NCBI GenBank assembly: GCA_032622095.1
Contig: CP136062.1
Span: 133,317,282-133,381,281, forward strand
Direction of reading: 5' to 3'
Source: Siphonodentalium dalli
Lineage: Eukaryota; Mollusca; Scaphopoda; Gadilida; Siphonodentaliidae
Length of the DNA: 64,000 nt
A program made the position numbers and the translations under genes. This document shows positions 1 to 25,862 of this stretch, piece after piece. Below the pieces are notes generated by a model, which was given only the letters and a program-made list of their open reading frames with translations, ran no database searches and was not told the DNA's origin. How positions within the stretch are numbered: the first letter of the stretch is position 1; the number at the start of each line of letters is the position of its first letter.

Positions 1-119
1 TGGTTGTGGGTGTCTCGTTCGCCTCACTTCTCAAAATAGAATCTTTGGGTCTAAAAATTGTTTGAGGGTAAAATTGTTCGAGGATAAAATTGGTTGTACT
101 AAAATATTCCAAATTATCA

Positions 120-290
120 AAAACCCAAAAAAAAAATTTCCAAACTTCCAAATTATCAAAACCCCAAAATTTCAAAACTTCAAATATTTCTAATCTTCCA
201 AAAATTTCAAATCTTCCAAAAATTTCAAATCTTCCAAAAATTTCAAAAATTTCAAATATTTCAAAAATTTCAAAACCCCCAAAATGTCGA
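120..290. repeat. A/T-rich short tandem repeat in the arm end (mirror at 8208-8378)
   Basis: A degenerate array of short units of the type caaatcttccaaaaattt. The reverse complement is present at 8208-8378 as part of the palindrome. The open frames across it and across the following 500 bases are low-complexity or unrecognised and are not called as genes. Confidence 0.6.
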
Positions 291-1036
291 ATGTTTATTA
301 AAATTATTTGCGTGTAATATCTTTCGTTATTTTTTTTTGTTCAAATATTTTTCATGAAATTATTAATCGATGTTTAGAAATAGCTTTATTGGACATTGTG
401 ACCATCGGTATGAATGCATACATTCCAGTGTTTTATCGGACGCAGTTCATATAATTGTCATACCTGAAAATAGACACCATTACTTTTACATAAATAATAA
501 AGAGCGTTTATTCTTTACACTCTCTCTATCCCAGATGAAGTTATTGAGTATATGACAGGTGTGTATTATCGTGAATTATTGGAAGTATTGAGATGTACTA
601 TGTTGAATCACTAACGGTCGAAAATGGTAATGTGAAATTACAACCCTCCAGAATGAATTGTCATATTCGATGGAACATATTATGTACACGTAATCACACA
701 CGCGACATTGGTGGTAACAATGTGTCTTTCACACCTTTGCTTTACCAAATGAATTCTATTATTTCCCCGGTCACAGTTATATGCCATTCAGAAAACATAT
801 CGATTTAATGTCTGAACAAACGGGTTAGTATCAATTAAGGTTGATAAACTGTGTCATTCACACGATAATTAGTTATCCAAAACATGCATACATATTACGT
901 CAGGTCGTGAGACACTCAATTATAGAAATTGCTTCGGTGTCATTGTTATAACAACATTACGTAATAACCACTTATCATTCCATTCACACTTACGCTCATT
1001 TTGTATACCAAAAATTTCAATATAATGAAGATGACG

Positions 1037-1069
1037 AAAAGTTACCTATAATTCTGCTGTGGTTAAGCC

Positions 1070-1108
<39 letters not shown>

Positions 1109-1250
1109 GTCACCAAGCGACATAACATCCTGCTTTGATGATCCAATGGCCAATGTCCATGAAGATTTTATTTCCGATGCAAGTCATATTTCCGACTAAC
1201 TCCTGAAAAGTTACCTATAATTCTGCTGTGGTTAAGCAGTCCATTATTTA
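1037..1250. repeat. Displaced fragment of the ATPase gene 5' region bounded by foldback-element ends (left arm)
   Basis: The segment begins and ends with the subterminal sequence of the central foldback element (gttacctataattctgctg and neighbours). Between the two copies lies a CAG run followed by about 75 bases matching the ATPase gene just after its poly-Q tract (compare 4770-4840). It is a partial duplicate, not a gene. The reverse copy is at 7245-7460. Confidence 0.75.
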
Positions 1251-1423
1251 GGGCATACCTGTATGTAGGCCTACCAGTGGATGAATAGTCTGCCGGAGAA
1301 GTACTGTGTAGACAGGTCTTGTCGGTAAGAGTGTCAGACGAGAAGTGAAGGCTCGGCTATTAAAACATAGTAATGCGATAGCGAACATCAAACGAGTCTG
1401 CGCACGCATATCTGTCAAAGGAT

Positions 1424-1555
1424 ACAATGGCAGTCATTGGTCAATTTATCCCCGGTGTCAGCTCAGTACAATGGCAGTCATTGGTCAATTTATCCCCGGT
1501 GTCAGCTCAGTACAATAGCAGTCATTGGTCAATTTATCCCCGGTGTCAGCTCAGT
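1424..1555. repeat. Three tandem 44-bp repeats (mirror at 6937-7068)
   Basis: Three direct copies start at 1424, 1468 and 1512, each containing gtcattggtcaatttatccc. Only one or two bases differ between copies. The same three copies are present in reverse orientation at 6937-7068, so the triplication predates formation of the palindrome or has been homogenised between arms. Confidence 0.9.
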
Positions 1556-1593
1556 ACACAATCGGCACGAAGCCGGAGGTCATAATTACTCTT

Positions 1594-2100
1594 ACGAATG
1601 AAGAGCGTTGAACATATACGAAATTATTACACGAATGAACTGAAATTTATATTTCACATCTTACCAACAACAGATACAGACATAGTCATAGTGTTATACT
1701 ATCTTACATGTACCCATGCTATGACATCATTCGAAGGGGCAATACACTCAAGGAGTTAAAGTGACACGAAACAAGGGACGTGATGTAATATTGGTGTATG
1801 AATCTTAAAGGAACACAAGACACTCTAAAGGGACACTCATTATGAAGGAATGTTAACAATACAAGCGCACGAATGAAGAGCGTTGAACATATACGAAATT
1901 ACTACACGAATGAACTGAAATTTATATTTCACATCTTACCAACAACAGATACAGACATAGTCATAGTGTTATATTATCTTACATGTACCCAAGCTATGAC
2001 ATACTTAAAGGGGGATAATGCACACACGGTGTGTGGAATGTTAAAGTGACACGAGGTAAGGGACGTTATGTAATATTGGTGTGTGAATATTAAAGGAGCA
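1594..2100. repeat. Two tandem units of about 275 bp downstream of the left-arm gene (mirror about 6395-6900)
   Basis: The sequence starting acgaatgaagagcgttgaac at 1594 recurs at 1869, and the units share the stretch from there through the acatgtaccca motif and the gacgtnatgtaatattgg motif. The mirrored pair lies 3' of the intact gene in the right arm. No coding potential was seen. Confidence 0.75.
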
Positions 2101-2181
2101 TTCTCGCTATACAAACCCCCCTCCCCACTTATAGATATATAACGAAGACGAGAATAACATGTTGATGAAGTTTATTGAAAT

Positions 2182-3720
2182 TTAATCATTGTCTGAATCT
2201 TCGACCGTTAGATTTACTTCTAAGAGTTTCTTGAATTTTCTCATCGCTTCATCTGCAGCCCATTCATTATTATATCCGCGTTTGGTCAGTTTGACCATTT
2301 TCTTCATGATCGTGTTATGTATGGGTGATGTTTTCAATCGATACTGGTATTCTATTAATCGTCTATAACTTTTGAGAAACAGAACAAACTCTGTGTCGAT
2401 GGTATCCTCTTTTCCCGACATGCTCTCATCTCCCGAAATGCTCTCTTCTTCTTTCACATCATTGGTGACGCGTTTCATCATACTTTTGAATGTGTCCATC
2501 TCGTTGACACATCGCGCAGCTTTCTTAAGACCGAATACCGTTCTACTACCGACGACATTACCATCTTTTGAATCTGATAGCGTTCCCCGTTCATCTTCAT
2601 CTGTATCTTCTCCGAAGAGAGTTGTTTTTGTCTCGGACATAGCTCCGTGTTCATCCGGGTCCTCAGTTAATTTTCGTTTTAACTTATTTTCTTGACACCA
2701 GTTTTTTACGTGTCTCTGAACATCATAATGATCTGCGAACAAAAGCCCGCATTCATTACAAGGGTACGACATGTCTTCTCGAATGTTTTGACGGTTCTTC
2801 TTATTAATTTCATCGAGCTCACCAGGTGGCCGTATGTCGTTAGTATAGTCATTATGTTGACCCTGGGCACAATATAATTATATGTTATGCCCTTCTGTTG
2901 ACCAGGGAGTTCTCTGTCATCGTATTTCATCGCATTCTGTTGACCCTGGGTCTCAGTGTCTTTTGTATGTTTTTTCATCCCATTATGTTCATCTGGGTGT
3001 TCTCTGTCTTTTTGGAGATTATATTTCATGCCATTCCATTCACCCCTATGTTGGTTCGTGTCCTCTTTTAGTACATTCTGTCGCAGACGTAATGTGTCCG
3101 GTGTTGCGGCTTTTAAATCCACCAGTAGGTAACCGTACGGTTCACTCGTCGCTTCCGAAAACTCTCGAACCATACGCTGAGGACATTCAGGATACATCTG
3201 TCTTGATAATGTTGAAATTAATCCCTTGTCGATTGGGTTATTGAACAATACCAAATATTGACAATTTCGTCGTTGCGTTGGATCTTTGTTGTAGTAGAAA
3301 TTCTGGTTCAAACTTATCAAAGATAAGTTCAAATGGTGACTTCCTTCGGAATGCAAATCATTAACTCTCTGGTCTTTTGATGAAGTTTGCATCAAGTCAT
3401 CGAGTATAACTAGATTTTTATACCGGGGGTTGATAAGCGAATCCAAGTTTGCTGGTATTCCTCGTATAAAGTTGACCTGAGGGGTGACGGTATACTTTAA
3501 TTCGTCATATAGGGGCTGCCAATATTTATAAAACCATATTATTCTGTCAGGTGCGGGTGATATTTTTGAGGCAGACTTTTGTAGTAAGGTTTTCACGAAG
3601 TATGTCTTACCACAAGATGTCGGTCCACTTACACATGCCGTGAATGGATGCTTGAAAATAAAATCTTCATGGACATTGGCCATTGGATCATCAAAGCAGG
3701 ATGTTATGTCGCTTGGTGGC

Positions 3721-3789
<69 letters not shown>

Positions 3790-3801
3790 GGCTGATGATA
3801 C

Positions 3802-3832
<31 letters not shown>

Positions 3833-3920
3833 CTGAAGGCGTGTGTTTAACTTTGATATGACGCTTCAAACTATCTTGCCAAGCATAGACACTTAAGCAC
3901 TCTTCACATTGATACTTCAT
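2182..3920 (-). pseudogene. Left-arm copy of the zinc-finger/poly-Q/packaging-ATPase gene, frameshifted
   Basis: This is the inverted twin of the gene at 4580-6310. Reading starts at 3920 with the same N-terminal C2H2 finger, two glutamine runs slightly longer than in the right arm, and the P-loop ATPase core. At 2861-2870 the left copy is one base shorter than the matching right-arm bases (5621-5631). Translation leaves frame there and the 404-residue product ends at 2706. The second zinc finger and the acidic C-terminal region remain open in another frame (2182-2772). A Ser replaces Arg just before the P-loop. The ATPase core itself is undamaged, so a truncated ATPase product is conceivable. 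It could also be a sequencing error in a long-read assembly; reads across 2861-2870 would settle that. Confidence 0.85.
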
Positions 3921-4085
3921 TTAACTAGTTCAGGCTGTCGTTCACAACGTCTCTTAGTGTTGTTTGTACTGGATACAAATTTATCACATTAGCTACAATA
4001 CAACCTACCTATCCAAATGTCAATGCAATTATGAGTGATTTCAATATGAACACTGGTGACTGACATGATGACTGACATGATGATA

Positions 4086-4402
4086 CAGTTATGCACTAAA
4101 TAATGGACTGCTTAACCACAGCAGAATTATAGGTAACTTTTCAGGAGTTAGTCGGAAATATGGCTTGTTGCCATTCATCGGAAAGCTCTCGCCGCCGGCG
4201 GATGTTGTTGGCGGCGGCATTGCGGTATTTTACTGCGGCGGCGGCGCCGCCGCCGCCGCCGCCGGCGCCGCCGCCGCCAACAACATCCGCCTGCGGCGAG
4301 AGCTTTCCGATGAATGGCAACAAGCCATATTTCCGACTAACTCCTGAAAAGTTACCTATAATTCTGCTGTGGTTAAGCAGTCCATTATTTAGTGCATAAC
4401 TG
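4086..4402. mobile_element. Tc1/mariner-like foldback MITE at the palindrome centre
   Basis: Inverted termini cagttatgcactaaataatg and its complement lie at 4086 and 4402, each bordered by TA (4084-4085 and 4403-4404). The arms fold back through the subterminal motif cttaaccacagcagaattat to a GC-rich centre of CGG/GCC triplets. Ends of the CAGTNATG type with TA borders fit the Tc1/mariner group. Because the surrounding arms are themselves inverted copies, the TA borders are not independent proof of insertion. Related termini occur at 36.1-36.6 kb. Confidence 0.7.
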
Positions 4403-4421
4403 TATCATCATGTCAGTCACC

Positions 4422-4445
4422 AGGTTACACATATCTATATAATAG
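4422..4445 (+). promoter_or_regulatory. Right-arm-only 24-bp segment with a TATA-like box
   Basis: The segment contains ctatataatag and lies about 135 bases upstream of the ATG of the intact ATPase gene. The left arm lacks it precisely: the flanking gtcacc and agtgttcat are directly joined there. A promoter role is inferred from sequence and position only. Confidence 0.35.
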
Positions 4446-4579
4446 AGTGTTCATATTGAAATCACTCATAATTGCATTGACATTTGGATAGGTAGGTTGT
4501 ATTGTAGCTAATGTGATAAATTTGTATCCAGTACAAACAACACTAAGAGACGTTGTGAACGACAGCCTGAACTAGTTAA

Positions 4580-4707
4580 ATGAAGTATCAATGTGAAGAG
4601 TGCTTAAGTGTCTATGCTTGGCAAGATAGTTTGAAGCGTCATATCAAAGTTAAACACACGCCTTCAGAACAACAACAACAACAACAACAACAACAGTATC
4701 ATCAGCC

Positions 4708-4770
<63 letters not shown>

Positions 4771-6310
4771 GCCACCAAGCGACATAACATCCTGCTTTGA
4801 TGATCCAATGGCCAATGTCCATGAAGATTTTATTTTCAAGCATCCATTCACGGCATGTGTAAGAGGACCGACATCTTGTGGTAAGACATACTTCGTGAAA
4901 ACCTTACTACAAAAGTCTGCCTCAAAAATATCACCCGCACCTGACAGAATAATATGGTTTTATAAATATTGGCAGCCCCTATATGACGAATTAAAGTATA
5001 CCGTCACCCCTCAGGTCAACTTTATACGAGGAATACCAGCAAACTTGGATTCGCTTATCAACCCCCGGTATAAAAATCTAGTTATACTCGATGACTTGAT
5101 GCAAACTTCATCAAAAGACCAGAGAGTTAATGATTTGCATTCCGAAGGAAGTCACCATTTGAACTTATCTTTGATAAGTTTGAACCAGAATTTCTACTAC
5201 AACAAAGATCCAACGCAACGACGAAATTGTCAATATTTGGTATTGTTCAATAACCCAATCGACAAGGGATTAATTTCAACATTATCAAGACAGATGTATC
5301 CTGAATGTCCTCAGCGTATGGTTCGAGAGTTTTCGGAAGCGACGAGTGAACCGTACGGTTACCTACTGGTGGATTTAAAAGCCGCAACACCGGACACATT
5401 ACGTCTGCGACAGAATGTACTAAAAGAGGACACGAACCAACATAGGGGTGAATGGAATGGCATGAAATATAATCTCCAAAAAGACAGAGAACACCCAGAT
5501 GAACAGAATGGGATGAAAAAACATACAAAAGACACTGAGACCCAGGGTCAACAGAATGCGATGAAATACGATGACAGAGAACTCCCTGGTCAACAGAAGG
5601 GCATAACATATAATTACATTGTGCCCCAGTGTCAACATAATGACTATACTAACGACATACGGCCACCTGGTGAGCTCGATGAAATTAATAAGAAGAACCG
5701 TCAAAACATTCGAGAAGACATGTCGTACCCTTGTAATGAATGCGGGCTTTTGTTCGCAGATCATTATGATGTTCAGAGACACGTAAAAAACTGGTGTCAA
5801 GAAAATAAGTTAAAACGAAAATTAACTGAGGACCCGGATGAACACGGAGCTATGTCCGAGACAAAAACAACTCTCTTCGGAGAAGATACAGATGAAGATG
5901 AACGGGGAACGCTATCAGATTCAAAAGATGGTAATGTCGTCGGTAGTAGAACGGTATTCGGTCTTAAGAAAGCTGCGCGATGTGTCAACGAGATGGACAC
6001 ATTCAAAAGTATGATGAAACGCGTCACCAATGATGTGAAAGAAGAAGAGAGCATTTCGGGAGATGAGAGCATGTCGGGAAAAGAGGATACCATCGACACA
6101 GAGTTTGTTCTGTTTCTCAAAAGTTATAGACGATTAATAGAATACCAGTATCGATTGAAAACATCACCCATACATAACACGATCATGAAGAAAATGGTCA
6201 AACTGACCAAACGCGGATATAATAATGAATGGGCTGCAGATGAAGCGATGAGAAAATTCAAGAAACTCTTAGAAGTAAATCTAACGGTCGAAGATTCAGA
6301 CAATGATTAA
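4580..6310 (+). CDS. C2H2 zinc-finger/poly-Q protein fused to a Polinton-type packaging ATPase (576 aa)
   Basis: The protein starts with a C2H2 finger (C5, C8, H21, H26), followed by glutamine runs of about 9 and 21 residues (31-64). A P-loop ATPase follows: Walker A GPTSCGKT at 96-103, Walker B NLVILDDLM near 165-173, and a SLNQNFYY sensor-like segment near 200. These match the A32/FtsK-HerA-like DNA-packaging ATPases of Polintons, including the one at 25907-26538 here (shared QPLYD, VVLDDLMD-like and ATSE..GYL motifs). Residues about 290-355 hold four imperfect short repeats around an NGMKY-type core. A second finger (C385, C388, H401, C406) and an acidic Ser-rich linker lead to an unrecognised C-terminal domain. 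The family normally pumps DNA into capsids. With no capsid gene nearby, a DNA-binding or transposition role is only inference. The start is the first ATG directly before the finger. The gene is uninterrupted. Confidence 0.9.
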
Positions 6311-6315
6311 ATTTC

Positions 6316-6321
6316 AATAAA
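6316..6321 (+). promoter_or_regulatory. Polyadenylation signal AATAAA
   Basis: AATAAA begins six bases after the stop codon of the ATPase gene, supporting that it is transcribed as a eukaryotic mRNA. The mirrored signal for the left copy is TTTATT at 2171-2176. Confidence 0.6.
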
Positions 6322-7244
6322 CTTCATCAACATGTTATTCTCGTCTTCGTTATATATCTATAAGTGGGGAGGGGGGTTTGTATAGCGAGAATGCTCCTTT
6401 AATATTCACACACCAATATTACATAACGTCCCTTACCTCGTGTCACTTTAACATTCCACACACCGTGTGTGCATTATCACCCTTTAAGTATGTCATAGCT
6501 TGGGTACATGTAAGATAATATAACACTATGACTATGTCTGTATCTGTTGTTGGTAAGATGTGAAATATAAATTTCAGTTCATTCGTGTAGTAATTTCGTA
6601 TATGTTCAACGCTCTTCATTCGTGCGCTTGTATTGTTAACATTCCTTCATAATGAGTGTCCCTTTAGAGTGTCTTGTGTTCCTTTAAGATTCATACACCA
6701 ATATTACATCACGTCCCTTGTTTCGTGTCACTTTAACTCCTTGAGTGCATTGCCCCTTCGAATGATGTCATAGCATGGGTACATGTAAGATAGTATAACA
6801 CTATGACTATGTCTGTATCTGTTGTTGGTAAGATGTGAAATATAAATTTCAGTTCATTCGTGTAATAATTTCGTATATGTTCAACGCTCTTCATTCGTAA
6901 GAGTAATTATGACCTCCGGCTTCGTGCCGATTGTGTACTGAGCTGACACCGGGGATAAATTGACCAATGACTGCTATTGTACTGAGCTGACACCGGGGAT
7001 AAATTGACCAATGACTGCCATTGTACTGAGCTGACACCGGGGATAAATTGACCAATGACTGCCATTGTATCCTTTGACAGATATGCGTGCGCAGACTCGT
7101 TTGATGTTCGCTATCGCATTACTATGTTTTAATAGCCGAGCCTTCACTTCTCGTCTGACTCTCTTACCGACAAGACCTGTCTACACAGTACTTCTCCGGC
7201 AGACTATTCATCCACTGGTAGGCCTACATACAGGTATGCCCTAA

Positions 7245-7460
7245 ATAATGGACTGCTTAACCACAGCAGAATTATAGGTAACTTTTCAGGAGTTAGTCGG
7301 AAATATGACTTGCATCGGAAATAAAATCTTCATGGATATTGGCCATTGGATCATCAAAGCAGGATGTTATGTCGCTTGGTGACTGTTGTTGTTGTTGTTG
7401 CTGTTGTTGTTGTTGTTGTTGTTGTTGTGGCTTAACCACAGCAGAATTATAGGTAACTTT
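7245..7460. repeat. Displaced fragment of the ATPase gene 5' region (right arm)
   Basis: Reverse-complement counterpart of 1037-1250: foldback-element end, about 75 bases of ATPase coding sequence, a CTG/TTG run, and a second foldback-element end (cttaaccacagcagaattat at both borders). One CTG interrupts the run, unlike the left arm. Confidence 0.75.
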
Positions 7461-8497
7461 TCGTCATCTTCATTATATTGAAATTTTTGGTATACAAAAT
7501 GAGCGTAAGTGTGAATGGAATGATAAGTGGTTATTACGTAATGTTGTTATAACAATGACACCGAAGCAATTTCTATAATTGAGTGTCTCACGACCTGACG
7601 TAATATGTATGCATGTTTTGGATAACTAATTATCGTGTGAATGACACAGTTTATCAACCTTAATTGATACTAACCCGTTTGTTCAGACATTAAATCGATA
7701 TGTTTTCTGAATGGCATATAACTGTGACCGGGGAAATAATAGAATTCATTTGGTAAAGCAAAGGTGTGAAAGACACATTGTTACCACCAATGTCGCGTGT
7801 GTGATTACGTGTACATAATATGTTCCATCGAATATGACAATTCATTCTGGAGGGTTGTAATTTCACATTACCATTTTCGACCGTTAGTGATTCAACATAG
7901 TACATCTCAATACTTCCAATAATTCACGATAATACACACCTGTCATATACTCAATAACTTCATCTGGGATAGAGAGAGTGTAAAGAATAAACGCTCTTTA
8001 TTATTTATGTAAAAGTAATGGTGTCTATTTTCAGGTATGACAATTATATGAACTGCGTCCGATAAAACACTGGAATGTATGCATTCATACCGATGGTCAC
8101 AATGTCCAATACAGCTATTTCTAAACATCGATTAATAATTTCATGAAAAATATTTGAACAAAAACAAATAACGAAAGATATTACACGCAAATAATTTTAA
8201 TAAACATTCGACATTTTGGGGGTTTTGAAATTTTTGAAATATTTGAAATTTTTGAAATTTTTGGAAGATTTGAAATTTTTGGAAGATTTGAAATTTTTGG
8301 AAGATTAGAAATATTTGAAGTTTTGAAATTTTGGGGTTTTGATAATTTGGAAGTTTGGAATTTTTTTTTTTGGGTTTTTGATAATTTGGAATATTTTAGT
8401 ACAACCAATTTTATCCTCGAACAATTTTACCCTCAAACAATTTTTAGACCCAAAGATTCTATTTTGAGAAGTGAGGCGAACGAGACACCCACAACCA

Positions 8498-9220
8498 ATT
8501 TTAGACCCAAAGATTCTATTTTTAGATGTGACGCTAAGGAGCCCCCTATTCTTCTTATCGGTGCTATCGGGGTCGATTCGGGACAATTCTGGACTCGCTC
8601 CCGACAGTTTTGAAATGTTCAAAACTATCGGGAACCAAGCCGAATCGCTCCCGATTTGTAAATCGTCGGGAGAAATTCGGGAGCAATTCGGCACCTATTC
8701 GGGAGTAGTCGGCAGTATTCGGCAATATTCGGGTGGATATTCTGGAGTAGTCGGCAGTATTCGGTAGGTTATTCCCGAATTCGCCATGTATGGCTGCTTT
8801 TATACTGAGATCCGGTGTATCTGCAAATTCGGCATCGATTCGGGACGTTCGGCAGCAATTGAATACCAATTCGGTATCTATTCGGCATCAATTCGGTACC
8901 AGTTCGGCATTGATTCGGGGTATTCGGCAACAATTCGGTGTAAGTCGGTAGTTAATCTGGGCAATTTGGCAGCCACTCGCACGAAAGTTCGGGATAATTC
9001 TTGATCATTCGGGAAGATATTCGGAAGCATTCTGGAATACTCGGCAACGTTCGGGACGATTAAATTTTGTCATAATTCGGCATCAGTTCGGCGGCTTTTT
9101 GGAATAAAACTCGTCCAGAATTCTCTCGAATGCTGCCGATTTGGTCTGGTCCCGAATTTGTGCCGAATATACTAATTCGGGACAGAAAATCGGGAATAAC
9201 TCTAAAATCAAGTGGTAATT
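8498..9220. repeat. Degenerate short-period array of attcggca/attcggga motifs
   Basis: From 8498 to 8530 the sequence repeats the palindrome's end motif (ttttagacccaaagattct). It then passes into several dozen irregularly spaced copies of attcgg followed by ca, ga or gta, with occasional complements. Open frames here only translate the repeat. No gene was seen. Confidence 0.7.
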
Positions 9221-10215
9221 TTAACGGAATTTTGACTGAGTTCTGGGCCAGATAGTATTCCCGATAATGAAAAATAATAGATTTCTAAAATCTATATCTA
9301 ACAAATCTGAGCTTTGATGGGTGACTTCCTCGACTCGAATCAAATATTTTTGACCCCCGAAGCCATTGAAATAGTAATTGAGAGGAGTTTTATCGGGTTG
9401 AGTACCTTTAAGAATATGCTTCATAAATTTTCGATGAACTTTTCCCAAAATATCATTGTTACCGAAACCCCAAATCTCGCAACCATATAATAATATTGGC
9501 ATAACATGCAGGTCGAACAAATCAAGTTGGTTTTTGATCGAGAGACAGTGCTTTCGCGATTTTCCAATAACTGAGTACATTGCTTTGGTAGCTTTTTCTG
9601 CCAGGGCCTTTTTTGCCGTCGTGAATGATCCAGATTTGCAAAATATTATTCCAAGGTAATTAAATTTATTTACTGTTTCGATTCTTCTACCTTTGAACAG
9701 AAATTTTGTCTTTTTTGGGAGACTGGTCTTCGATAGGTTGACAATTTTTGTTTTCTCGATATTCACTGTTAATTTCCATTTATTGCAATATTTTTCAAAG
9801 AGATCCAATTGTTGTAAAACTTTTGGGGTTTCCGCCATGATTGTCGTATCATCGCGGCGTAAATAATCATGACTATTTTTACATAACAGTTGAGTCGATT
9901 CTCTATTTCTAGGTCTATTGTTTTTAAGCCCACTATGTCGTTATTGTTATCGAGTAAATATTATTGCAAATCGTTTAAATACAGTGTGAATAATAGGGGG
10001 ATATGTTGCTCCTTGCCTAACACCAGCATGACAGGGGACGTAAATGGATATGTGTCCCTCTGCTTGAACACAGGATTTTAAATGAGTATACATGTTGGCA
10101 ATAACCGTGAATATTTTCCCATTGATCCCATATTTCAAAATTTTCATCCAAAGTCCTTGCCTCCACACCATGTCGAATGCCTTTTGGAAGTCAATGAACG
10201 CGCATAATAAATGTT
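9221..10215 (-). pseudogene. Decayed LINE (non-LTR) reverse transcriptase, C-terminal part
   Basis: Read on the minus strand, 10213 to 9947 contains FIDFQKAFDMVW (RT domain 2 region) and GVRQGATYPP, the usual GVRQG box. Near 9850-9875 the catalytic YADD box is degraded to RRDD followed by TTIMAET. The frame from 9838 to 9221 (205 residues) covers the RT thumb and connection region, with FNYLGI and LLYGCEIWGF motifs typical of Jockey/RTE/CR1-like elements. Frames change between these pieces, the 5' part with the endonuclease is missing, and the active site is mutated, so the copy is dead. Clade assignment is not attempted. Confidence 0.85.
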
Positions 10216-14500: not shown

Positions 14501-14931
14501 AGGATTAATCAAAACACATGTATGGTTCCATGAGGGTAAATTAAAATATGGTCACACACAGAGAGGGTTAATTGAAATATGGTCCTATGAGGGTAAATTA
14601 AAATATGGTCACATCACGGTTAAATAAAATATGGCCCCATGAGGTTTAATTAATATATCGTCAAATGGGGGTTAACAAAAAATATGGTCCCATAATGGTT
14701 AATTAAAATTGTACCTTGATTGTTATTTAATATATCGTTCCATGAGTGTTAATAAAAATATGGACCCATGGGGGTGGGGGGGGGGGTAAATGAAATATGG
14801 TCCCATTAAGGTCAATTAAAATATGGTAACTTGACTTCCATTATGAGGGTTAATTAAAATAAAAATATGGTGTCATCAGTGTTGATTAAACTACGGTCCC
14901 ACTGGGGTGAAACACAATATAGTCCCATGAG
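14500..14931. repeat. Minisatellite that hosts the Polinton (left part)
   Basis: Irregular direct repeats of about 26-45 bases built on gttaattaaaatatggtccc and catgagggt. The array resumes on the far side of the Polinton at 29320-29410 (catgagtgtcaattaaaata), showing that the element landed inside one array. Confidence 0.8.
14926..14931. repeat. Polinton target-site duplication, left (CATGAG)
   Basis: CATGAG immediately precedes the element's first base (AGTAGTATAG...). The identical hexamer follows the last base at 29320-29325. Six-base duplications are the Polinton norm. Confidence 0.92.
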
Positions 14932-15348
14932 AGTAGTATAGTCTACGTTTTCTAGTAGATGGTTTGACTTGACTTTGCTCCACTCCTGATCCTGAGCTAA
15001 CCGGGGTTTATAGGTCACGCCGCGTGGGTGTATATATCGGTGAAGGTTATCGCCATAATAACGCGTGGCGGGTACGTCTAGTCAAGGACGAACAAAATAA
15101 TTCCGCAACAAGCGGGCCGAGGTTATCACGAGAACAGCGCGTTATCGGGGGGGGGGGGGGGGGGGCAGTACGTGTAGGTTATATATATCTATTCGGCGAA
15201 GGTTATCACCATAATAGCGTATAAACGACGCGCGTACGTCTAGGTCCCGGGCGAACAATTCGGCGAAGGTTATCACGAGAATAGCGCGTGATCACGGGTG
15301 TATATATCTAGGTCACGGGTAAACGATATATTCCGCAACAAATCGGCG
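14932..15348 (+). repeat. Polinton left terminal inverted repeat (417 bp)
   Basis: Matches the reverse complement of 28915-29319 with few differences, the largest being a G-run near 15150. After a unique first 110 bases the TIR consists of four sub-repeats of about 65-85 bp, each opening with a cggngaaggttatc motif. Similarity ends after aaatcggcg. Confidence 0.9.
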
Positions 15349-15940
15349 GGGCACGGAGCCAAGGTTTTAATGGGGTAGGGTATAACTGAACGATAAACGC
15401 GGTAGGGTTTTGTACTACAGCAGCTGGTAAATAATTGTTAATTAGTAGACAGAGATAGAACATAAAACGCGAGGTATCCGTTAATTAGCTGACGTTTCTA
15501 TTTTGAGTAAAAACAATTTCGTTTAGTGTGTGTGTATCGTTTTAATGGGGTAGTATAGGACTATAAATATGTTCGGCTCACGAGAACAAATACTATAACC
15601 GGCTGAAGCTATATCACTGACGCCCGTTTCGTTTGGTCTGACGCCAATACAGAGGGCGGGTATAAACGAAAGGCTCAGTATATAAACGTCGAATGGATAC
15701 TGTTACACAATATCGGGAATATATTTCCAACTATATATGTTCTAATATATAATTATTTAGTTTTAGTTAATAAAAGTTGGATCACAATTGTTTTAAATCA
15801 GGAAGTATTCTATTAAGGATAAACACAAAACCAGGTACGTATATTTATATTTATTCAATTGTCTTTATTTCCGGAAGTCTTGTTCAATCATAGTTTTGAG
15901 AATATATACTCCAAACCACTGTTACTCTTATTGGAGGGTA
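15349..15940. other. Polinton left non-coding region
   Basis: No coding sequence was seen between the TIR and the first minus-strand gene. The sequence holds two gttttaatggggtag motifs (near 15365 and 15540) and runs to the downstream region of that gene. Confidence 0.5.
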
Positions 15941-16270
15941 CTAACTTATAAATACACACGAGTATGGATAACTGACCTCTTTCACCCACGAAGATAACTC
16001 TATTAATAAGTTTCGATCAGCTTGTGTGTCCACACCAAATTTTAATCCCCAATACTCCAGCTCATTTGCAGATTTAGGGTTTGAATATTCTTCAGAGTCA
16101 GAGCCGCGTTGAATAAGTTTTAGAATTATAAGTAGATAATGCCGTGTCGTATCGTCTTTTGCGGGTCCTACTTGTTTGACCTTTCGTTTCTCGGTAGTAC
16201 TAGGTAGGGCGTTATAAGTGGAAGGCAAGGAATCAATAGTAGAATTAAAGCTGATGGAGGTTAATGGCAA
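15941..16270 (-). CDS. Polinton hypothetical protein (109 aa, possibly the C-terminal part of a longer, broken gene)
   Basis: Unrecognised protein. The N-terminal 30 residues are Ser/Thr-rich, followed by a basic KRKVK patch and a mixed alpha/beta-looking C-terminal half ending near Cys-Val-Phe. The frame upstream (16270 to about 16380) keeps the same Ser/Thr-rich character before stops appear, so the true start may lie further right and a small lesion may have cut the gene. It is divergent from the polymerase gene and shares the 16,470-16,965 intergenic region with it. Position in the element suggests an accessory role, but no function is assigned. Confidence 0.45.
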   Translation of the reverse strand: MPLTSISFNSTIDSLPSTYNALPSTTEKRKVKQVGPAKDDTTRHYLLIILKLIQRGSDSEEYSNPKSANELEYWGLKFGVDTQADRNLLIELSSWVKEVSYPYSCVFIS

Positions 16271-16548
16271 GCTTTTATTAGTAGTACATATCTGTCAGAA
16301 GTTGCTGGTAAACTCTCACTAGAATTAGAAGGTGCAGTAAATCCATATGTATATCACAAGATGTCTGAAGTTGATGCAATAGTAATAGGGTACTAAATCC
16401 CCTACTAGAAATAGACAGTACTACAGATGTGTTGGAACGTAGCAGCAAGAACAGAGGAATCCTCACCGCTTATTACTATACATACAAATACCTCTATAGT
16501 GCGGGTGCCAGAAGGTTATGAATTGTGATTATATATAGTGAACAGAGA

Positions 16549-16860
16549 AAATGTTGGCACACACCTATAAGTCTAACGCCTATATAATTGCGATGGAAAT
16601 ATTACCAGGCAACAGCTTATGTATGCACCGGTCTATTTTAGTCTTAATTATCATTGTGTACGTATCCCAGCTAATATATTGTAGAGTGAGACGCAATGCC
16701 AAAAATGTTGGCACGGATCAATAAGTCGAACACCCAGATAATTGCCAGGAAATACTGCCAGGTAACCGGCGTATGTACGCTCTGATCTATGTTAGTCTTA
16801 ATTAGCCTTGTGCACGTATGTCGGGAGCCAATATATATATATATTATAGCGGGTTTAGTC
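16549..16860. repeat. Two tandem units of about 152 bp in the divergent upstream region of the polymerase
   Basis: Segments starting aaaatgttggcac at 16549 and 16702 share the order: ataagtc.aac.cc, ataattgc, a gaaatactncca motif, gtatgta and gtcttaatta. The second unit leads into an alternating TA stretch (about 16831-16846) that could act as a TATA region about 120 bases before the proposed polymerase start. The regulatory role is inference. Confidence 0.55.
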
Positions 16861-17364
16861 TACTTTCCTATGCAGGTAAACTAACACTACAGAGTTTGGA
16901 AAATCGGACGACAGAAATACGAGCTTTATAGTCAACAGGCGGAAGTTCTAAACGGAAATAATACAATGGTATGTATAATTAAAAAAAAAAATTTGGTTTT
17001 AAAAAAAAAAGTTTAAAAAAAAAAAAAAAAAAAAAAATGTTTTTTTTCTTCAAAATTTATGTTTTTTTTCAAAAAAAAAATTTGGTTTTCCAAAAAAAAA
17101 AAAAAATTTAAATTTTTTTTCAATTTTTTTTCTCTCAACAATATAGTCATGTGATATATCAAATTACTCGTCTCCACGTATCGACTACAACGCAGCAATT
17201 TTTATCAAAATTGTATGTATATATTTTGAATTATTTAAAGAAATGTTATAACACTATTTCCAAATGCTAAATATTGGGGTTATATTACTGCCCTATATCA
17301 AAATGTTTTTTTTTTTTTTGGTGTTTTTTACCTTCTTCTTATTACTCCTTGTATTCCCTTTTAG

Positions 17365-17544
17365 GAAATCGACCGCGACAAAGTACCATCACCACCACCA
17401 CCACTATCAACTTCTATTGTATCAAACACAAAGATATATCAAGAAAAATGTCCAAAGTGCGAATATATTTCCCAATCAAAGGTCGACAAGATTAATCATG
17501 AAGATTTACATAGGACATTGGATAATATCTGCCAAACGTATTCC
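17365..17544 (+). other. Polymerase exon 2 (Pro-rich segment and first zinc knuckle)
   Basis: Open 60 codons between acceptor TTAG (17361-17364) and donor GTGAGT (17545). It encodes a run of prolines and a CPKC...H..C finger. The frame is uninterrupted only when spliced this way: an unspliced reading is closed by stops on both sides. Confidence 0.7.
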
Positions 17545-17656
17545 GTGAGTATTATCTTTATATGTATAGTTGTATTTATTATACCTAAATAAATTTTCTA
17601 ATTGTAGGGGAAATAAATTCTGTGGAAGTCAATTATTTATTTACTTCTATTTAAAG

Positions 17657-17848
17657 GTTACTCCCAGTGAATTCGCCTGCAGTCAGTGTGACAAGGTGTA
17701 TACTCAGAAGAACAACCTCTCTCGCCACCTGCGGGCACAACACGACGGTATTCAATACCCGTGTTCAAAATGCGGTAAACTATTCAAATACAGAAGCGAT
17801 AGCGTGAAACACGAGAAGACCTGCGGAAGTGTGTTGTATTATCACAAG
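17657..17848 (+). other. Polymerase exon 3 (two C2H2 fingers, duplicated in exon 4)
   Basis: 64 codons between the AG at 17655-17656 and GTACGT at 17849. Its two fingers (CSQC...H..H and CSKC...H..C) are closely matched by the first two fingers of exon 4, including the QHDG.QYPCSKC linker. This shows a tandem exon duplication within the element. Confidence 0.75.
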
Positions 17849-20800
17849 GTACGTATGATATATGTTTAGTGGTAAAAAATAAAAAAAAAACTATCCTTTT
17901 GATGTAGGTGGGATAGATATTATGTAACTATATACGACGCAGTATCAGTATTTTTTTTATTTTCAGGAGATCGTATTCGCTTGCGATCAGTGTGACAAGA
18001 CGTTTACCCAAAAGAAAAACCTAGCTCGTCACGAGCGGAAGCAACACGACGGCGTTCAATATCCGTGCTCAAAATGTAGTAAAGTATACAAATATAGAAG
18101 CGATAGGGTGAAACACGAGAAGGTATGCCCGGGTACCCGTGCCTCGTATTCGTGTTCAATATGCTCCAAGTCGTTCGAAGATAAAAGCAACAAGAAGAAA
18201 CACGAACTGGTATGCGTCGGTACCGACCACGTGTGTGACGTTTGTCAAATGAGGTGTTCTACAGCGGGGGGACTCAGACAACATAACGACACTCATCAAA
18301 GACAATAGAAAAGAAAACGTAGCGATATAACTTATTCCGTAGCGGCCAAACGTCCTAAAAGAAAAGTACCAATAAATTATTATTGCTGTCGGCAATGCAC
18401 CGAAAAATTCCCTGATCGACACAAGTTATATCTGCACAGAAAAAATATACACTTTCAAACCGGAGGTGGTATACAGAAAACACCGTGGGGAAACGAGCCA
18501 CCGCCGTGGCAAGATAACACCGGAGCGAACGACTCTGATTTAGAAGAAGCGTATTTAGCTAATAGGGACACCATATTACAACAACACAAAAAAGGAGCGA
18601 TATATAACTTATACAATTTCCCACTAAGCAACGAGGTCACTATAAAAACACTGATCACTTGTATAAGAAAAATATATAAGGACAAGAAAAGCGCTATGCG
18701 TCTAAACCTAATGTTCGGAGTAATATTGAAGAACAAAGATAATGGCAGATACCGCTACTACGCCCCGTATAAGAACAGCGCCGTATTTGATACCCCGGTG
18801 TACCTTTCCAGGAGGGTGGATATCAGAAAGTTGAAATCCAGATTGAGTGAAATGGATATGACCGCAGTTCTGCTGAAATCGAGACCCGACACCGCCTGGG
18901 TTCCGGTGTTAATAACCAACGTAAATTTCGAGGTTTTCGGCTTGAACTATCCAGTAGGAAGAGGGGACGTCCCAGATTATCTCACGCGAAAGATGAGTAT
19001 TCACACTCTAATCAACAATGTACAAGGCGGACGACGATACAACGACAACCTATGCGCTTTTCGCTGTATCGCGCTCCACAAAGGATATAAACTTTATAAT
19101 CTGGAAAATGCGACCAAGCAATATTTCAGCGAGTGGAAAAAGTATAAATCAATCGGCAAGCGATTCGACGGAGTATATTTCGAAGAGTTTCCCGACATCG
19201 AAAAGTTGTTCAATCTAAACCTGGAGGCCTACAGTTTGAACGAAGAGGGTTTCGCCGTATCAGTGTACGCGTCCAGGGGAAAGCACGATACAACCCTATA
19301 CGTCAATATTCACGAAAATCACATGATGTATATAAAGAATTTCCCTCAATATGCGAGCAAGTACCAATGCGTGAACTGCGATCGCCACTTTCCGAAAGCT
19401 CATAACTTACGACGACACCAAGTAATTTGCGTCAACCAGACGGAGTTCGTATACCCCGGTGGGTTTTACATGGATTTCGAAAGCATCTTCGTCCAGTTGG
19501 AACAACAAGGCATACACGTACCGAAGAACGAGCGAATATACGCGTGGTTTATTTGTTTCGATTACGAGTCGCTTCTTCAAAAGGTGGAGAATGACGTATC
19601 CGGTCAGAATCTGGAATGGATTCAGAAACACGTACCCGTAAGCGTATCTATCTGCAGTAATATCGAAGGACATACCGAACCTTTCTGTATAGTGGAACCC
19701 GACACTAATACTCTGGTGGAATGTATGGTGGCTTCTATGTACGAGATATACGCGACCGTCTCTGAGTTGGCGGAGGATAAATGGGGTTGGGTGGTGCAAG
19801 AAATTAACGAGAAAATGAAGGCTGAGAATGATGATGATGATGATGATGATGATGAGGATGATGACGATGACGAAGACGGCTGTAATAAGAAGAGGAAGAA
19901 GCACACAACCTTAAGTAGTTTACTCGGCAAATTCTCTCAATATATGTCTCAAGTCCCCGTCTTGGGATTTAACGCATCAAACTATGACTTGAATTTGATT
20001 AAGATTTGCCTAGCCAGACACTTGAACTTACACGACGAGGAGCGAGTGTTCGTGGTCAAGAAGAACAACTCGTACATGTGTATAGCTTCTAAGCGACTCA
20101 AATTCCTCGATATATCTCATTACCTATCGCCGGGTTCGTCTTACGTGAAATTCCTCAAGGCGTACGACGTCAAAGAAACGAAAGGTTTCTTTCCCTACGA
20201 CTTTTTTGACGATATCGACAAGTTGAATGCGAAGCGACTACCGCCTCACGAAGCCTTCTACAACTCGATGTCATAATCAAATATCAGCGAAGCCGACTAC
20301 GCTTACTGTCAGCTCGTGTGGGAAACCGAAGGTATGGCGACCTTTAAAGATTTTCTCGTATGGTACAACAACAGAGACGTCAAACCCTTCGTGACTGCGG
20401 TCGAACGTTTGCAAACTTTTTATTTCGATCAAAATATCGACGTCTTCAAAACCGCTATATCAATACCCGGAATCGCCAGGCAATTGGCCTTTCGTGCCGC
20501 GCGTGAAAACGACGCGAACTTCGCGCTGTTCGGAAAGAACGATTCGTCCTTGTTCAAAACGGTGAAGGATAATCTCACGGGAGGGCCCGCGATAATCTTT
20601 ACCAAAAATCACTGCGGCGGAAAAACATTTATCAGAGCCGGGAGCGATTTATGTCAATCAGTACAGGGTTTCGACGCCAATGCCCTTTATTTGAATTCCG
20701 AGAAAGCGATGCCGGTCGGTGCTTATATTATAAGAAGGGCCGAGAACGAATTCAAACCCGAATTACGAGATAAATTCTTATCCGCCTACCATTGGATGGA

Positions 20801-22529
20801 TTGGCTCACGCGTCACGAAGGTCTAGATATCCAACACAAAATGAACAGCGGCTTCGAAGTACGAATCGGCAAGTTTCCGGTCGACGGTTTTCAACCGGCT
20901 AAAGACGAGCACGGTCGAGCGATTATCTTCCAATTCCACGGCTGTTGGTTTCACGGACATTCGGGTTGTTCAGTCACCCGTAATATAACGAACGAGAAAT
21001 GGTTGAAGACTAGAGAAGCCAAATTTAAAAAAACGAACGAGACCACCGAATATTTCCGAAGTTTGGGTTACGAAGTCAGAGAAATATGGGAATGCGAATA
21101 TAAAGAATACTGCCGAAATACTCCGAAGATCTACCAATTCATCAACGCTACGAGGCCTCAATTTTTCCGTCGCCACAGACAACGGGTGAGCGAGGAAGAG
21201 ATTTTGAAAGGTATCACGGACGATGAGCTGTTCGGAATGATCGAGGTCGATATAGAAGTTCCCGTCGAATGGCCGACTTCGCTGCCCTCGACACCCGCAC
21301 TCGATCCTCGCGAATATTTCGCTGAAATGTCCCCGATTTTCTGCAACACCGATATTCCCTTCGACGCTATCGGCGAGCATATGCAAGATCACGTGCGGGA
21401 GCACGATCTTTCGCAAAAGCCGCGACGTCTCTTGGTCGGAGGTATGAAGGCCAGGCAAATTTTGTTGGCGAGCCCTCTGCAGAAATGGTATTTACAGCAC
21501 GGTATAGTAGTGACGAAGATCTACCAGGTAGTGGAGTATCGGTCCCAACGCTGTTTCCAATCGTTCGTAGACCGGGTCAGCGACGCTAGGAGAACGGGCG
21601 ACCTACATCCCGATAAATCTATAATAGCCGACACGATGAAGGTGATAGGGAATTCCGCGTACGGATCTATGATAATGAATAAAATGACGCATCGAGATAT
21701 TAAGTATATTCAGGGAGAGAACAAAACCTCTCTCAAAATCAATGAACCACGATTTCGAAAATTGGAGTGCCTGGACGAAGAAGAGGAATATTACGAAGTC
21801 GAAATGGCTAAGCAAAAAATCAAGCTGGACCTACCTATCCAATTGGGATTCTTTATTCTGCAATACGCTAAACGAAGAATGTTGGAATTCTATTACGATT
21901 TCCTCGATTTATACGTGGAGAGACGTAATTTCGAATACCTAGAAATGGACACAGATTCGGCGTATATCGCACTCGCCGGGAAAACGCTCAGAGACGTAAT
22001 TAAACCGTTGCATAAGTATGACGAAGGTATATCGGGTTCGTGTCACGATGATAACTCGGAGGATCGCTGGTTCCCGAGGACTTGTTGTACGAAACACGCC
22101 GCTTTCGACAAACGAAAACCGGGATTATTTAAGCTGGAATACAGCGGAGACGAGATGATCGGGCTTTGCTCGAAAACCTACATCGCCCGAAAGGCGAAGG
22201 TGGTTAAACCTTCCAGTACCAGAATCGTCGGATACGGGCTACTGAGGAAAGCTATCAATCTGAAAAAGAAGTCACTCCCGAAATTTCGAAAAACGAATGA
22301 ATATAAAATCAGCTCCAAGGGATTACGAAAATGCAGCATTAAAGCGCCGATGTCTATTTATAGAAGGGTACTCCGAAGCGGACGAGTAGGATCAAGCACG
22401 AACCGCGGATTCAGGGCTAGACACAACACCATATACACGTACACGCAGGAGAAGAGAGGTTTTTCATATTTTTATTGCAAAAGAGAGGTACTGAGATGCG
22501 GGATACGCACGCGACCTTTAGATATTACA

Positions 22530-23288
22530 TTAACTCCGGTACAAAAAGTACGCCAAAATAACCGCCGGAGATACTTTGACCTTGCAGGTTTCTAGTATCG
22601 CGTCCTCTATATGTACTTTGTACGTCGCGGCGTCGTCGGTCGTCATCAGACAAAACGACGGGTCGGTGCGATACAATCTCACGACCACGTCCACTTGATT
22701 CAATAGATAACGATCTTGTAAAAATACGTCGTGGAGTATAGGTCCGCATAAATCGACGGTTTTGCTATCTGCCGTCCGCTTCGAACGCTTAATTAATCCG
22801 TCGTTCCTTCCTTTCGTGTCTGCACTGTCCATATGTCCGTATTTATCTCCGTGATATAACTGACTATCCAGCTGCGTTATTTTAGCATCGTTCCCGTATT
22901 TCAAGAGCGTTTGAATAATACTCTTGTACTGGTAGTTATTGGTGTTCGAAGATACCAACTTCCCGGACATGAATACGTCTACTTGTTCGAACATAGAGGA
23001 CATAAAAAGATTGACCGGTCCGACTTTATCGGTGGCAGCGATCGACGAGCCGTCTTTTTTCGTAATTTTAGCTTTTACGTGTAAACGACTTCTTTTCAAA
23101 TCCAGATATTCCATCGCATTCTGTCCCGATATGTGGAACTCGATAGGCGAGAGGTCGGAGAGTTGAGACACCGGCCGATTTTCTTCGAAGCTTATACTCT
23201 AAACTCCGGTTTGATGAGGCGGTAATTCGAAAAGATTAAGCGAGCTGGGTTGCGCCTCGCGGAACGTTTCTTTGTTTAGGAACGACAT
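22530..23288 (-). pseudogene. MCP: Major capsid protein (double jelly roll), N-terminal half only, with in-frame TAG
   Basis: From ATG at 23288 the frame gives the typical Polinton MCP opening (LNLFELPPHQTGV), is closed by TAG at 23199-23201, and continues in the same frame through SPIEFHISG, YLDLKRS, VGPVNLFMSSMFEQVDVF and a CKVKVSPAVILAYF motif to a stop at 22530. This is the family first recognised as C. elegans F54H12.2-like proteins. Full MCPs run to roughly 450-600 residues; only about 250 codons are present, and the sequence runs directly into the 3' end of the polymerase gene, so the second jelly roll is deleted. The start overlaps the preceding gene by 53 bases. It would build the icosahedral shell, but this copy cannot encode a complete protein. 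Confidence 0.88.
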
Positions 23289-23637
23289 CGTCAAACTCGT
23301 CGTGCTTCCGTCTCTCGGCGGTGATCTGCGCCTTACTGACGAGTTTCCGTTTTTTACCTCTTTTTATAGCCGTTTGTCTCTGAATTTGACTCTTGGCTCG
23401 TTCCACGTCTTGTTGGGAGGGTGATACGAGCGACACTTCGATTTCCCCTTGAGGCTGAACCCGTTCCGTAGAATATCTTTCGATCGGTATCATATAGGTC
23501 TGTTGAATATCACCGACACCGCCGCCGCCGGTTTGAACGTTATAGTTATCCGCGTACGTGTCTGTTTTACCGCCGGCGATATTGCGGTAAAACCTCAACC
23601 ATTTTTGCGTGTCCGGTATATAGAGTTTGTCCGTCAT
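23236..23637 (-). CDS. Polinton conserved basic protein between penton and MCP (133 aa)
   Basis: Opens with a YIPDTQKWLRFYRN motif, followed by a Gly-rich stretch, an IPIERYS segment and a strongly basic patch (KRGKKRKL) in the C-terminal third. A gene of this size and character sits just upstream of MCP in many animal Polintons; a minor virion or core protein is a reasonable inference from position but is not shown. Its ATG overlaps the stop of the penton reading frame (TAATG), and its 3' end overlaps the MCP start, which indicates one tightly packed transcription unit. The frame is intact. Confidence 0.7.
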   Translation of the reverse strand: MTDKLYIPDTQKWLRFYRNIAGGKTDTYADNYNVQTGGGGVGDIQQTYMIPIERYSTERVQPQGEIEVSLVSPSQQDVERAKSQIQRQTAIKRGKKRKLVSKAQITAERRKHDEFDDVVPKQRNVPRGATQLA

Positions 23638-24078
23638 TACGAATAGAACGGATACCTTTTCAGATGTAACGTCAACGTCGACGGTTCCGTTAAAAATGAA
23701 GCCGGGTTACCCGCTTCATCTCTTATATAGAATTCCATATCATAAATTTCTTTCACTTTGAGAGGAATATATTGAGGTATCGAGAAACTGTGCGTCCATT
23801 TCCCGTTCTTAGACGGGGTAAACGACGCGCATTAACGGTTCTGAACGATCACTCACGATAGACTCGGTACATATATCACTCATAACGTAAAGGTGTGATT
23901 TTCCTTTAGCGGTTTTGGAGTTCTTCATCGAAGCGTCGATATCGGTGATCGCCACATTCCAGAAACCTTCTAACTTAAGCGGCGAACTCAAATGAATACG
24001 AAAATTATGAGTGTTATTGTCTTTCCAATATTTCAAACTCTGATCGCTCCTTATCGTTATATAATAATCCGACTGCAT
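23637..24078 (-). pseudogene. Penton / minor capsid protein (single jelly roll), one frameshift
   Basis: The start at 24078 gives a YYITIRSDQS..YW..N....F...L motif and FWNVAITDID, typical of the Polinton penton protein that forms the capsid vertices. The first frame stops at 23809. From about 23820 a second frame resumes with KWTHSFSIPQYIPL, YDMEFYIRDEAG and LTLHLKRYPF and ends at 23637. A single-base indel at about 23813-23822 explains the break. Total length of about 147 codons suits the family. The gene overlaps its upstream neighbour by 22 bases. Confidence 0.8.
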
Positions 24079-24380
24079 TTCAACCTCGGGATAATCGGTT
24101 TGAGCAGTAGCGGTAGTATATACTGATATCTGTTCAACAAGTTTCTTCTCTGCTTGTTCGTTACCCGCTTAGAAACCAAACGTCGTATAACGTTTCTATA
24201 GTCGTACAACTCCTTTTTGACTTTGTTAGTCATAGGACAAACGGCGTGGAGTACGTTGTATACGCCTTCGGTTATTGCGTGTAGTTGATCGTCCGATAAA
24301 GTTCTTAAAATAGCTTTCCGTTGTGAGTCGGAGGTTTCAATTAATATTTTGAATAATGCCAAATGTTTTTTTACGCCCAT
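24057..24380 (-). CDS. Small basic Polinton protein (107 aa)
   Basis: A Lys/Arg-rich helical protein with an N-terminal LFKILIETSDSQRKAIL motif, a central LHAITEGVYNVLHA motif, basic VIRRLVSKRVTNKQRR and a hydrophobic segment LPLLLKPIIPRL near the end. Proteins of this layout are common in animal Polintons and adintoviruses and have been compared with small adenoviral core or membrane-active proteins; that comparison is from general knowledge and uncertain here. The last residues look atypical, so the C terminus may be altered. It overlaps the penton start and lies 31 bases after the integrase stop. Confidence 0.65.
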   Translation of the reverse strand: MGVKKHLALFKILIETSDSQRKAILRTLSDDQLHAITEGVYNVLHAVCPMTNKVKKELYDYRNVIRRLVSKRVTNKQRRNLLNRYQYILPLLLKPIIPRLKCSRIII

Positions 24381-24411
24381 GTTACCGGCTGGCGATATAG
24401 AGTCGTTATAA

Positions 24412-25530: not shown

Positions 25531-25862
25531 TTAAGTCTTTTCTGTTTAGATGATTTATTTCTCTTTCGCTTCAGCGGAATTCCGGGCGGCGGTGGTAAGG
25601 AGATACCTAAACCTAATTGCGTTTTATACGCCTCTGTTTTAGTGGACCGGGTGGTGACTTCTTGTTCAGATTTATTGCTTTCCTTTTGAGCGGATCGGGT
25701 GGTGACTTCTTCTTCAGATTTATTGAATTCTTTTATCGAGTAGTCGGGTTTAATTCGGGGTTCGTGAGTTGTTATGGCATTATAGTCGTTATTTACGACC
25801 TCGTCCTGACCCGACAGTAGGTGTTGAAATCTTTCATTCGATAGTAATACCAACTTTTTCAT
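25515..25862 (-). CDS. Polinton small hydrophilic protein with an internal duplication (115 aa)
   Basis: Opens with MKKLVLLSNERFQHLLSG, a pattern common for the small Polinton protein preceding integrase. The middle has a near-perfect 16-residue duplication (NKSEEEVTTRS and NKSEQEVTTRS). The C terminus has a PPPPGIP stretch followed by basic KRKRNKSSKQKR and ends in a Trp-Leu-Lys-Leu tail. It is charged throughout and predicted to be mostly disordered. Function is unknown. The frame is intact and overlaps the integrase start. Confidence 0.65.
   Translation of the reverse strand: MKKLVLLSNERFQHLLSGQDEVVNNDYNAITTHEPRIKPDYSIKEFNKSEEEVTTRSAQKESNKSEQEVTTRSTKTEAYKTQLGLGISLPPPPGIPLKRKRNKSSKQKRLKWLKL

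Follow-up and report, generated by a model that had tools for sequence, protein, structure and literature searches.

What kind of element forms a palindrome of over 8 kb in the genome of a scaphopod mollusc and carries a gene for a packaging-type ATPase? The question is raised by the start of a 64,000-nucleotide stretch of contig CP136062.1 of Siphonodentalium dalli (the window: C2:133,317,282-133,381,281, in an assembly of 2.23 Gb and nine contigs). There, an initial annotation had described a palindrome at 1..8497 with two near-identical inverted arms, each bearing a gene that combines two zinc fingers, a glutamine-rich region and a P-loop ATPase, and had taken it to be either an undescribed class of mobile element or a satellite of Polintons. 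We find that the palindrome is a real, recently amplified mobile element, and that, as judged from its sequence, it is a non-autonomous Polinton sharing its termini with an autonomous-type element of the same genome. The reading that we consider probable goes further: a non-autonomous, self-complementary Polinton satellite, made by template switching and replicating via a hairpin.

The two arms, each some 4.2 kb long and inverted to one another, are present. A single alignment of 8,528 columns puts their identity at 98.7%, and inverted blocks of 1,108, 1,798, 959, 330 and 156 bases are chained over window 1-8497. The coordinates first given for the palindrome, however, were clipped by the window edge: the true length is 8,613 bp, from 58 bp to the left of the window start through window 8555. 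Its left outer end, seen in the 4 kb read to the left of the window (L009), begins with AGAAGAATAG..., and its right end at 8555 reads CTATTCTTCT. Both ends are flanked by the 6-bp target-site duplication (TSD) TATCGG, the right copy of which lies at 8556..8561 and the left copy outside the window. The left terminal region (1..1014, plus strand) is mirrored by the right one (7484..8555, minus strand), and an asymmetric GC-rich centre (4219..4269) forms the loop of the palindrome. The arms differ mainly near this centre, with 15 of the 25 arm substitutions in the innermost fifth. The interval between gene and terminus contains non-coding direct repeats with spacings of 275 to 285 bp and of 44 bp (6392..7069, mirrored at 1423-2100).

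A chance origin of the palindrome is excluded because there are many copies of it in the genome. A nucleotide search with window 200-1500, which scored the best 40 of 4,137 candidates, gave at least 75 matches, many of them as inverted pairs. A search of the genome with the encoded protein scored 76 of 7,398 candidates by a ranking that favours intact copies, so that its counts are lower bounds: it returned 76 long rows (98-100% identity), of which 67 are stop-free, and 25 short ones that correspond to parts of these open reading frames (ORFs). The 76 scored ORFs belong to at least 51 elements, distributed over all nine contigs; wherever both ORFs of an element were scored (25 of 25) they are arranged head-to-head, 649-2,542 bp apart. 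Twenty genome stretches were fetched for close study, and 17 elements were examined for TSDs, with L027 and L028 left out and the right end of L019 not found. All 16 elements with both ends located, namely 13 palindromes, two full Polintons termed M and N, and a copy-back element described below, have perfect 6-bp TSDs, with a preference for T at position 3 (11 of 16) and A at position 4 (13 of 16). When the flanks of L017 are joined with a single TSD, a frame of 481 codons is open over the whole 1,443 bp; hence, insertion of this copy seems to have split an ORF cleanly. It is the one long frame among the joined flanks of 13 copies: that of the window copy spans 157 residues, nearly all on one side, that of L013 has 158 residues spanning both sides, and those of the other 10 (23-128 residues) are uninformative. 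The search of the assembly for further copies, common ends and TSDs has thus recovered all of these, and the view of the palindrome as a mobile, multicopy element with shared ends is borne out, to the exclusion of a single copy without defined ends.

The right arm codes for a 576-residue protein (4580..6310, plus strand) with the following parts: an N-terminal C2H2 finger (residues 5-26; 4592..4657, plus strand), a stretch rich in glutamine with runs at residues 31-39 and 44-64, an ATPase resembling the A32/B204 packaging type, a second finger of the C2HC form (residues 385-406; 5732..5797, plus strand), and a helical, acidic C-terminal domain. The gene is intact in this arm only: in the left arm 404 residues are open (2706..3920, minus strand) before the frame is broken, and the C-terminal part, of 196 residues, continues in another frame (2182..2772, minus strand). 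The P-loop ATPase itself is confirmed, with a Walker A motif GPTSCGKT at residues 96-103 (4865..4888, plus strand), a Walker B motif LVILDD at residues 167-172, and a match to Pox_A32 in Pfam above the cut-off (E=1.5e-5); the finger matches fall under the Pfam cut-offs (24.2 versus 25.2 bits for zf-C2H2). The AlphaFold model of the protein has a mean predicted local distance difference test score (pLDDT) of 71, with the ATPase part mostly at 78-97 by blocks, and all 13 best PDB matches of the ATPase model are to the B204 packaging ATPase of the Sulfolobus turreted icosahedral viruses STIV and STIV2. It therefore combines Walker A and B motifs with, in its predicted structure, the fold of A32/B204-type packaging ATPases, and may have a role in packaging. 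A search of PHROGs with three proteins gave no match.

The affinities of the termini emerge from comparison of fifteen loci and the window with the full Polintons M (16,321 bp, on C2) and N (16,203 bp, on C6). In the core of the window palindrome's terminal inverted repeat (TIR; 281-1014), identity to M and N is 94.8-95.8%, and in the more diverged, AT-rich outer part of this TIR it is 76-83%; L012, L015, L016 and L022 are 89-94% identical to M over about 1 kb. Beyond the TIRs the window palindrome, L010-L015, L020, L021, L027 and L028 have no match to M or N; L016-L019 and L022 additionally match the interior of M, chiefly M 5400-5861 at about 82-83%. Both full elements code for PolB (PF03175, DNA_pol_B_2; E=2e-46 in M and 2e-51 in N) and for an integrase, with rve and chromodomain matches in M and recognized by identity in N. 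Further, M codes for a 420-residue protein with a predicted double jelly-roll major-capsid fold (model pLDDT 92; best PDB matches to Sputnik, Singapore grouper iridovirus and mavirus at about 10% identity), and for a C5 protease whose match falls just under the Pfam cut-off. The M-type integrase has at least 107 genome matches among those scored, at 97-100% identity. The window palindrome lacks genes for PolB, integrase, capsid and protease: it has no other long ORF, and its ORFs leave no room for the last two. In the other palindromes no PolB or integrase was recognized among ORFs of at least 120 residues, which were inspected visually and compared with the ATPase alone. The full elements have PolB and integrase and the palindrome lacks them, which makes it non-autonomous; its TIR core, shared at about 95% identity with full Polintons of this genome, makes it a non-autonomous Polinton. 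Its ends read AGAAGAATRG..., giving the AG...CT termini and long TIRs of Polintons/Mavericks; for vertebrate Polintons, PMC8097293 lists the end motifs (AG)3 and (AGT)2. With Polintons it shares the 6-bp TSD, the AG ends, TIRs of about 1 kb and a packaging ATPase of the A32/FtsK type, whereas it differs from them in being a palindrome without PolB, integrase, capsid and protease, in having half their size and in carrying one gene twice. The TSD length, the AG ends and the Polinton TIRs make it a Polinton derivative and hence no undescribed class; of the two guesses in the initial annotation, the satellite of Polintons was the better.

The gene has a different history from the termini. Its protein family comprises at least 133 database proteins (120 among the matches listed), with members named from Mizuhopecten, Pecten, Argopecten, Pinctada, Solemya, Mytilus, Ruditapes and Mya. 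Among the 81 listed homologues with a recognizable Walker A motif, a simple pattern finds fingers on both sides of it in 24, only after it in 30 and only before it in 13; a further 39 listed proteins are without the motif pattern. The two-sided arrangement occurs in proteins of Pinctada, Solemya, Mytilus, Ruditapes and Mya, and the two closest pectinid proteins have the second finger only. Since several bivalve proteins have this same architecture, the fingers were not newly acquired by a motor split off from capsid genes, as had been supposed. Two gene models (P0052, P0058) have the finger-ATPase fused to an integrase C-terminus and chromodomain sequence. On L030, a contig from a metagenome-assembled genome (MAG) of a Bathymodiolus symbiont, a finger-ATPase gene (plus strand, from about 4496) stands divergently beside a PolB gene (minus strand, 1143-2834 at least; 27-39% identical to the PolB of N, E=3e-21 and 3e-13); Pfam alone, on the three frames scanned, gave no match for this PolB. 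We read L030 as host contamination of the MAG. A tree built from 101 of 123 ATPase domains, rooted on the domain of M and with path support mostly of 0.78-0.96 (one value of 0.28 and one of 0.66), nests the palindrome ATPase in the finger-ATPase family, far from that of M, with which it shares 31% identity. Terminus and gene thus derive from different Polinton lineages. Four integrase copies in the genome are nearer to that of Mya (50-55%) and are candidate relics of the donor lineage. Profile searches yielded 2 loci from 63 pattern matches in genome contigs, and no relatives among 41 pattern matches in viral contigs. As a separate observation, Polinton-type ATPase genes occur in the MAGs of Candidatus Thiodubiliella (L030) and of an Ignavibacteria member (L029), and P0055, named from a Sedimenticola MAG, is a finger-ATPase of the bivalve type: all of these are probably contamination, in the first two cases from the animal host.

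A precedent for the step from full Polinton to palindrome is suggested by a 9,535-bp element with the TSD AATAGT at C6:163,553,319-163,562,853 (L043, L046, L047). It follows M at 99.3% identity up to M 5416, and then runs on the opposite strand from M 5556 downwards, again at 99.3%; the integrase gene is thereby present once per half, and the ends (701-bp stretches) are 99% alike. At the switch exactly 4 bases (GGCG) are shared; an 11-base BLAST overlap at this junction was discarded as microhomology, being imperfect beyond this exact stretch. This element is apparently a copy-back derivative of M. We infer that the finger-ATPase palindromes likewise arose by copy-back, from a parent not found in the genome.

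The replication of Polintons is described in PMC4028283 as protein-primed. During strand-displacement replication, the nascent strand would leave its template, jump to the displaced complementary strand and be copied back to its own terminus, thereby giving a palindrome. The integrase and protein-primed PolB of the full Polintons would then act on this palindrome in trans. In later cycles the displaced single strand could fold back as a hairpin whose only origin is terminal, and completion of this hairpin from its one terminus would restore the full palindrome, with both arms reset to identity each cycle. Less certainly, the finger-ATPase, or in a second subfamily the finger and C-terminal domain, might aid recognition or packaging of the satellite DNA in helper particles; in adenovirus, PMC12090768 reports, the packaging protein IVa2 binds the packaging sequence near the left inverted terminal repeat (ITR). 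The complete scenario, a self-complementary satellite of a Polinton virus with hairpin replication on the helper polymerase, use of the helper integrase and a finger-bearing factor that draws helper capsids, is one that we offer as tentative and rather doubtful.

Several observations weigh against the hairpin-replicating satellite, and they are set out here together with the rival explanations on which they bear. Neither transposition nor a replication intermediate nor a particle has been seen. No full Polinton with the finger-ATPase was found in this genome, so that there is no direct view of how the palindrome arms arose. The copy-back element on C6 carries other cargo than the finger-ATPase palindromes, and was read at its two ends, at the centre with the left integrase and at the position of the right integrase.

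Further points of this kind concern the ATPase. The six palindromes of subfamily 2 (L016-L020, L022) have no trace of it, L013 has lost it too, and L011 retains 22 of its residues per arm (in L014 and L021, which are interrupted by runs of N, the ATPase content cannot be judged); since such palindromes exist, the motor is not needed for mobility. These same losses speak for the possible, if doubtful, alternative that the palindromes are defective copy-back copies, passively amplified, with the ATPase as a functionless passenger. On the other hand, the finger and C-terminal domain are common to both subfamilies: in 11 of 12 arms subfamily 2 keeps an ORF of 191-192 residues that combines a different C2H2 finger with the same C-terminal domain. 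Likewise, 67 of the 76 scored ORFs have no stop, though the scoring favours intact ones. For the whole ORF without the Q-rich columns, the ratio of nonsynonymous to synonymous differences (pN/pS) amounts to 0.49; by parts it is 3.7 for the linker, 0.33 for the C-terminal part and 0.23 for the ATPase, the last two counting against a mere passenger. These values rest on about 0.6% synonymous difference among 12 distinct ORFs, with no significance test, a divergence so low that selection is hard to measure. The corresponding values are 0.37 within subfamily 1, 0.35 within subfamily 2 and 0.61 between the two, the last being inflated by the unlike fingers.

The remaining adverse points concern the identity of the arms, for which gene conversion following insertion could be another source. 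Conversion is a known property of long palindromes, and it might be supposed that these are ordinary non-autonomous Polintons with very long TIRs, their arms made identical in this way and the palindrome having no part in replication. The centre of L022 (4700-5340) lends this some force: it holds some 113 bp of the left flank of this same element, attached to the element's left end, which suggests conversion or template switching after insertion, and shows that one or the other occurs. However, over the 719-bp TIR core the sister arms are mutually nearest in all 14 palindromes with both arms (L027 and L028 have one arm each), being 0-0.43% apart against 0.29-3.74% to the nearest other arm, where conversion would lead one to expect some copies not yet converted. 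Re-pairing the arms of 16 elements at random reached the observed mean sister distance in none of 10,000 trials. The own termini of M and N are 1.0% and 3.3% apart and mutually nearest in neither, a control that consists of two elements only. Similarly, in nine of the ten palindromes profiled, out of 13 with two ends (L011, rearranged, and L014 and L021, with runs of N, were left out), arm substitutions amount to 0.1-0.5% along the outer 80%, the other being L018 with an asymmetric 3.6%. Seven palindromes (the window copy, L010, L012, L016, L017, L018 and L022) show a clear excess at the centre and two (L013, L015) a slight one; L020 shows none. This low and even divergence fits the renewal of one arm from the other in each cycle, and we consider conversion alone an unlikely explanation. 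We also considered a flip/flop of the centre as a signature of the hairpin and dropped it, since a palindrome can insert either way round. Other peculiarities of the arms are the replacement of one side of the L017 centre (4650-5310) by a stretch similar to the interior of M, and arrays of short repeats in steps of about 20 bp within the arms of L016, L019, L020 and L022.

Assemblies are known to go wrong at palindromes this large, and the exact beginning of this one at window base 1, together with the runs of N in the fetched copies L014 and L021, might be held to betray a fold-back artefact of assembly. Nevertheless, the window start is an arbitrary cut within a 235-Mb contig and no contig end, and 13 palindromes have unlike left and right flanks with a matching 6-bp TSD: an artefact is excluded for the family and is most improbable for the window copy. 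Kinship with Foldback or Galileo-like elements (of the P/Mutator-like element type), which the long inverted arms and overall fold-back shape might evoke, has a negligible chance of being correct given the TSD of 6 bp, as against 7-9 bp in those elements, the different ends, and a TIR core that is shared, at about 95% identity, with a Polinton coding for PolB, integrase and capsid.

Elsewhere in the window there is a second, unrelated and decayed Polinton (14931-29320) with TIRs of 0.4 kb that are 90.7% identical. It has a weak PolB match (E=2e-8), an integrase with chromodomain 40% identical to that of M, a frame 40% identical to the M capsid protein, a broken ATPase frame, and genes for PC4 and a deoxynucleoside kinase. 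Between the two elements, at 9221-9838, lies a reverse-transcriptase-like ORF with a weak match to RVT_1 of Pfam, under the cut-off.

Non-autonomous transposons as such are ordinary; what is unusual here is one that is palindromic, self-complementary and equipped with a packaging-type gene. An exact-phrase literature search for a non-autonomous Polinton/Maverick gave no match, and no palindromic or satellite Polinton is described in the titles and abstract openings among the matches listed, a search that left Repbase and most subscription papers outside. The closest parallels are found among viruses. In copy-back (snap-back) defective viral genomes, a terminus and adjoining genes are similarly duplicated in inverted form by template switching, but the palindromes described here are chromosomally integrated with TSDs, number in the dozens and carry a gene. 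Daniell is said to have described in 1976 palindromic left-end duplications in incomplete particles of adenovirus. Self-complementary genomes of the adeno-associated virus type share with them a hairpin-forming palindrome able to serve as its own second strand, whereas the palindromes have Polinton termini and no Rep/ITR system, and the hairpin step is our proposal. Phage-inducible chromosomal islands (PICIs), P4, virophages and transpovirons are likewise small, dependent on a capsid-coding helper and in possession of a packaging-type gene; in contrast to them, the palindromes would be satellites of a Polinton, with a putative capture of the helper.

Polintons are regarded as virus-like; at the writing of PMC8097293, however, as its abstract states, their particles had not yet been observed. 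Small palindromes that keep a packaging-type gene and the termini of a helper point indirectly to a linear DNA stage that replicates and may be packaged. Copy-back junctions and the identity of sister arms would be footprints of strand displacement, by which Polinton replication may become readable from genome sequence. A layer of satellites would thereby be added to elements usually treated as the autonomous party, and, if the reading is true, it would give integrated animal viruses a counterpart of the phage satellites that hijack packaging.

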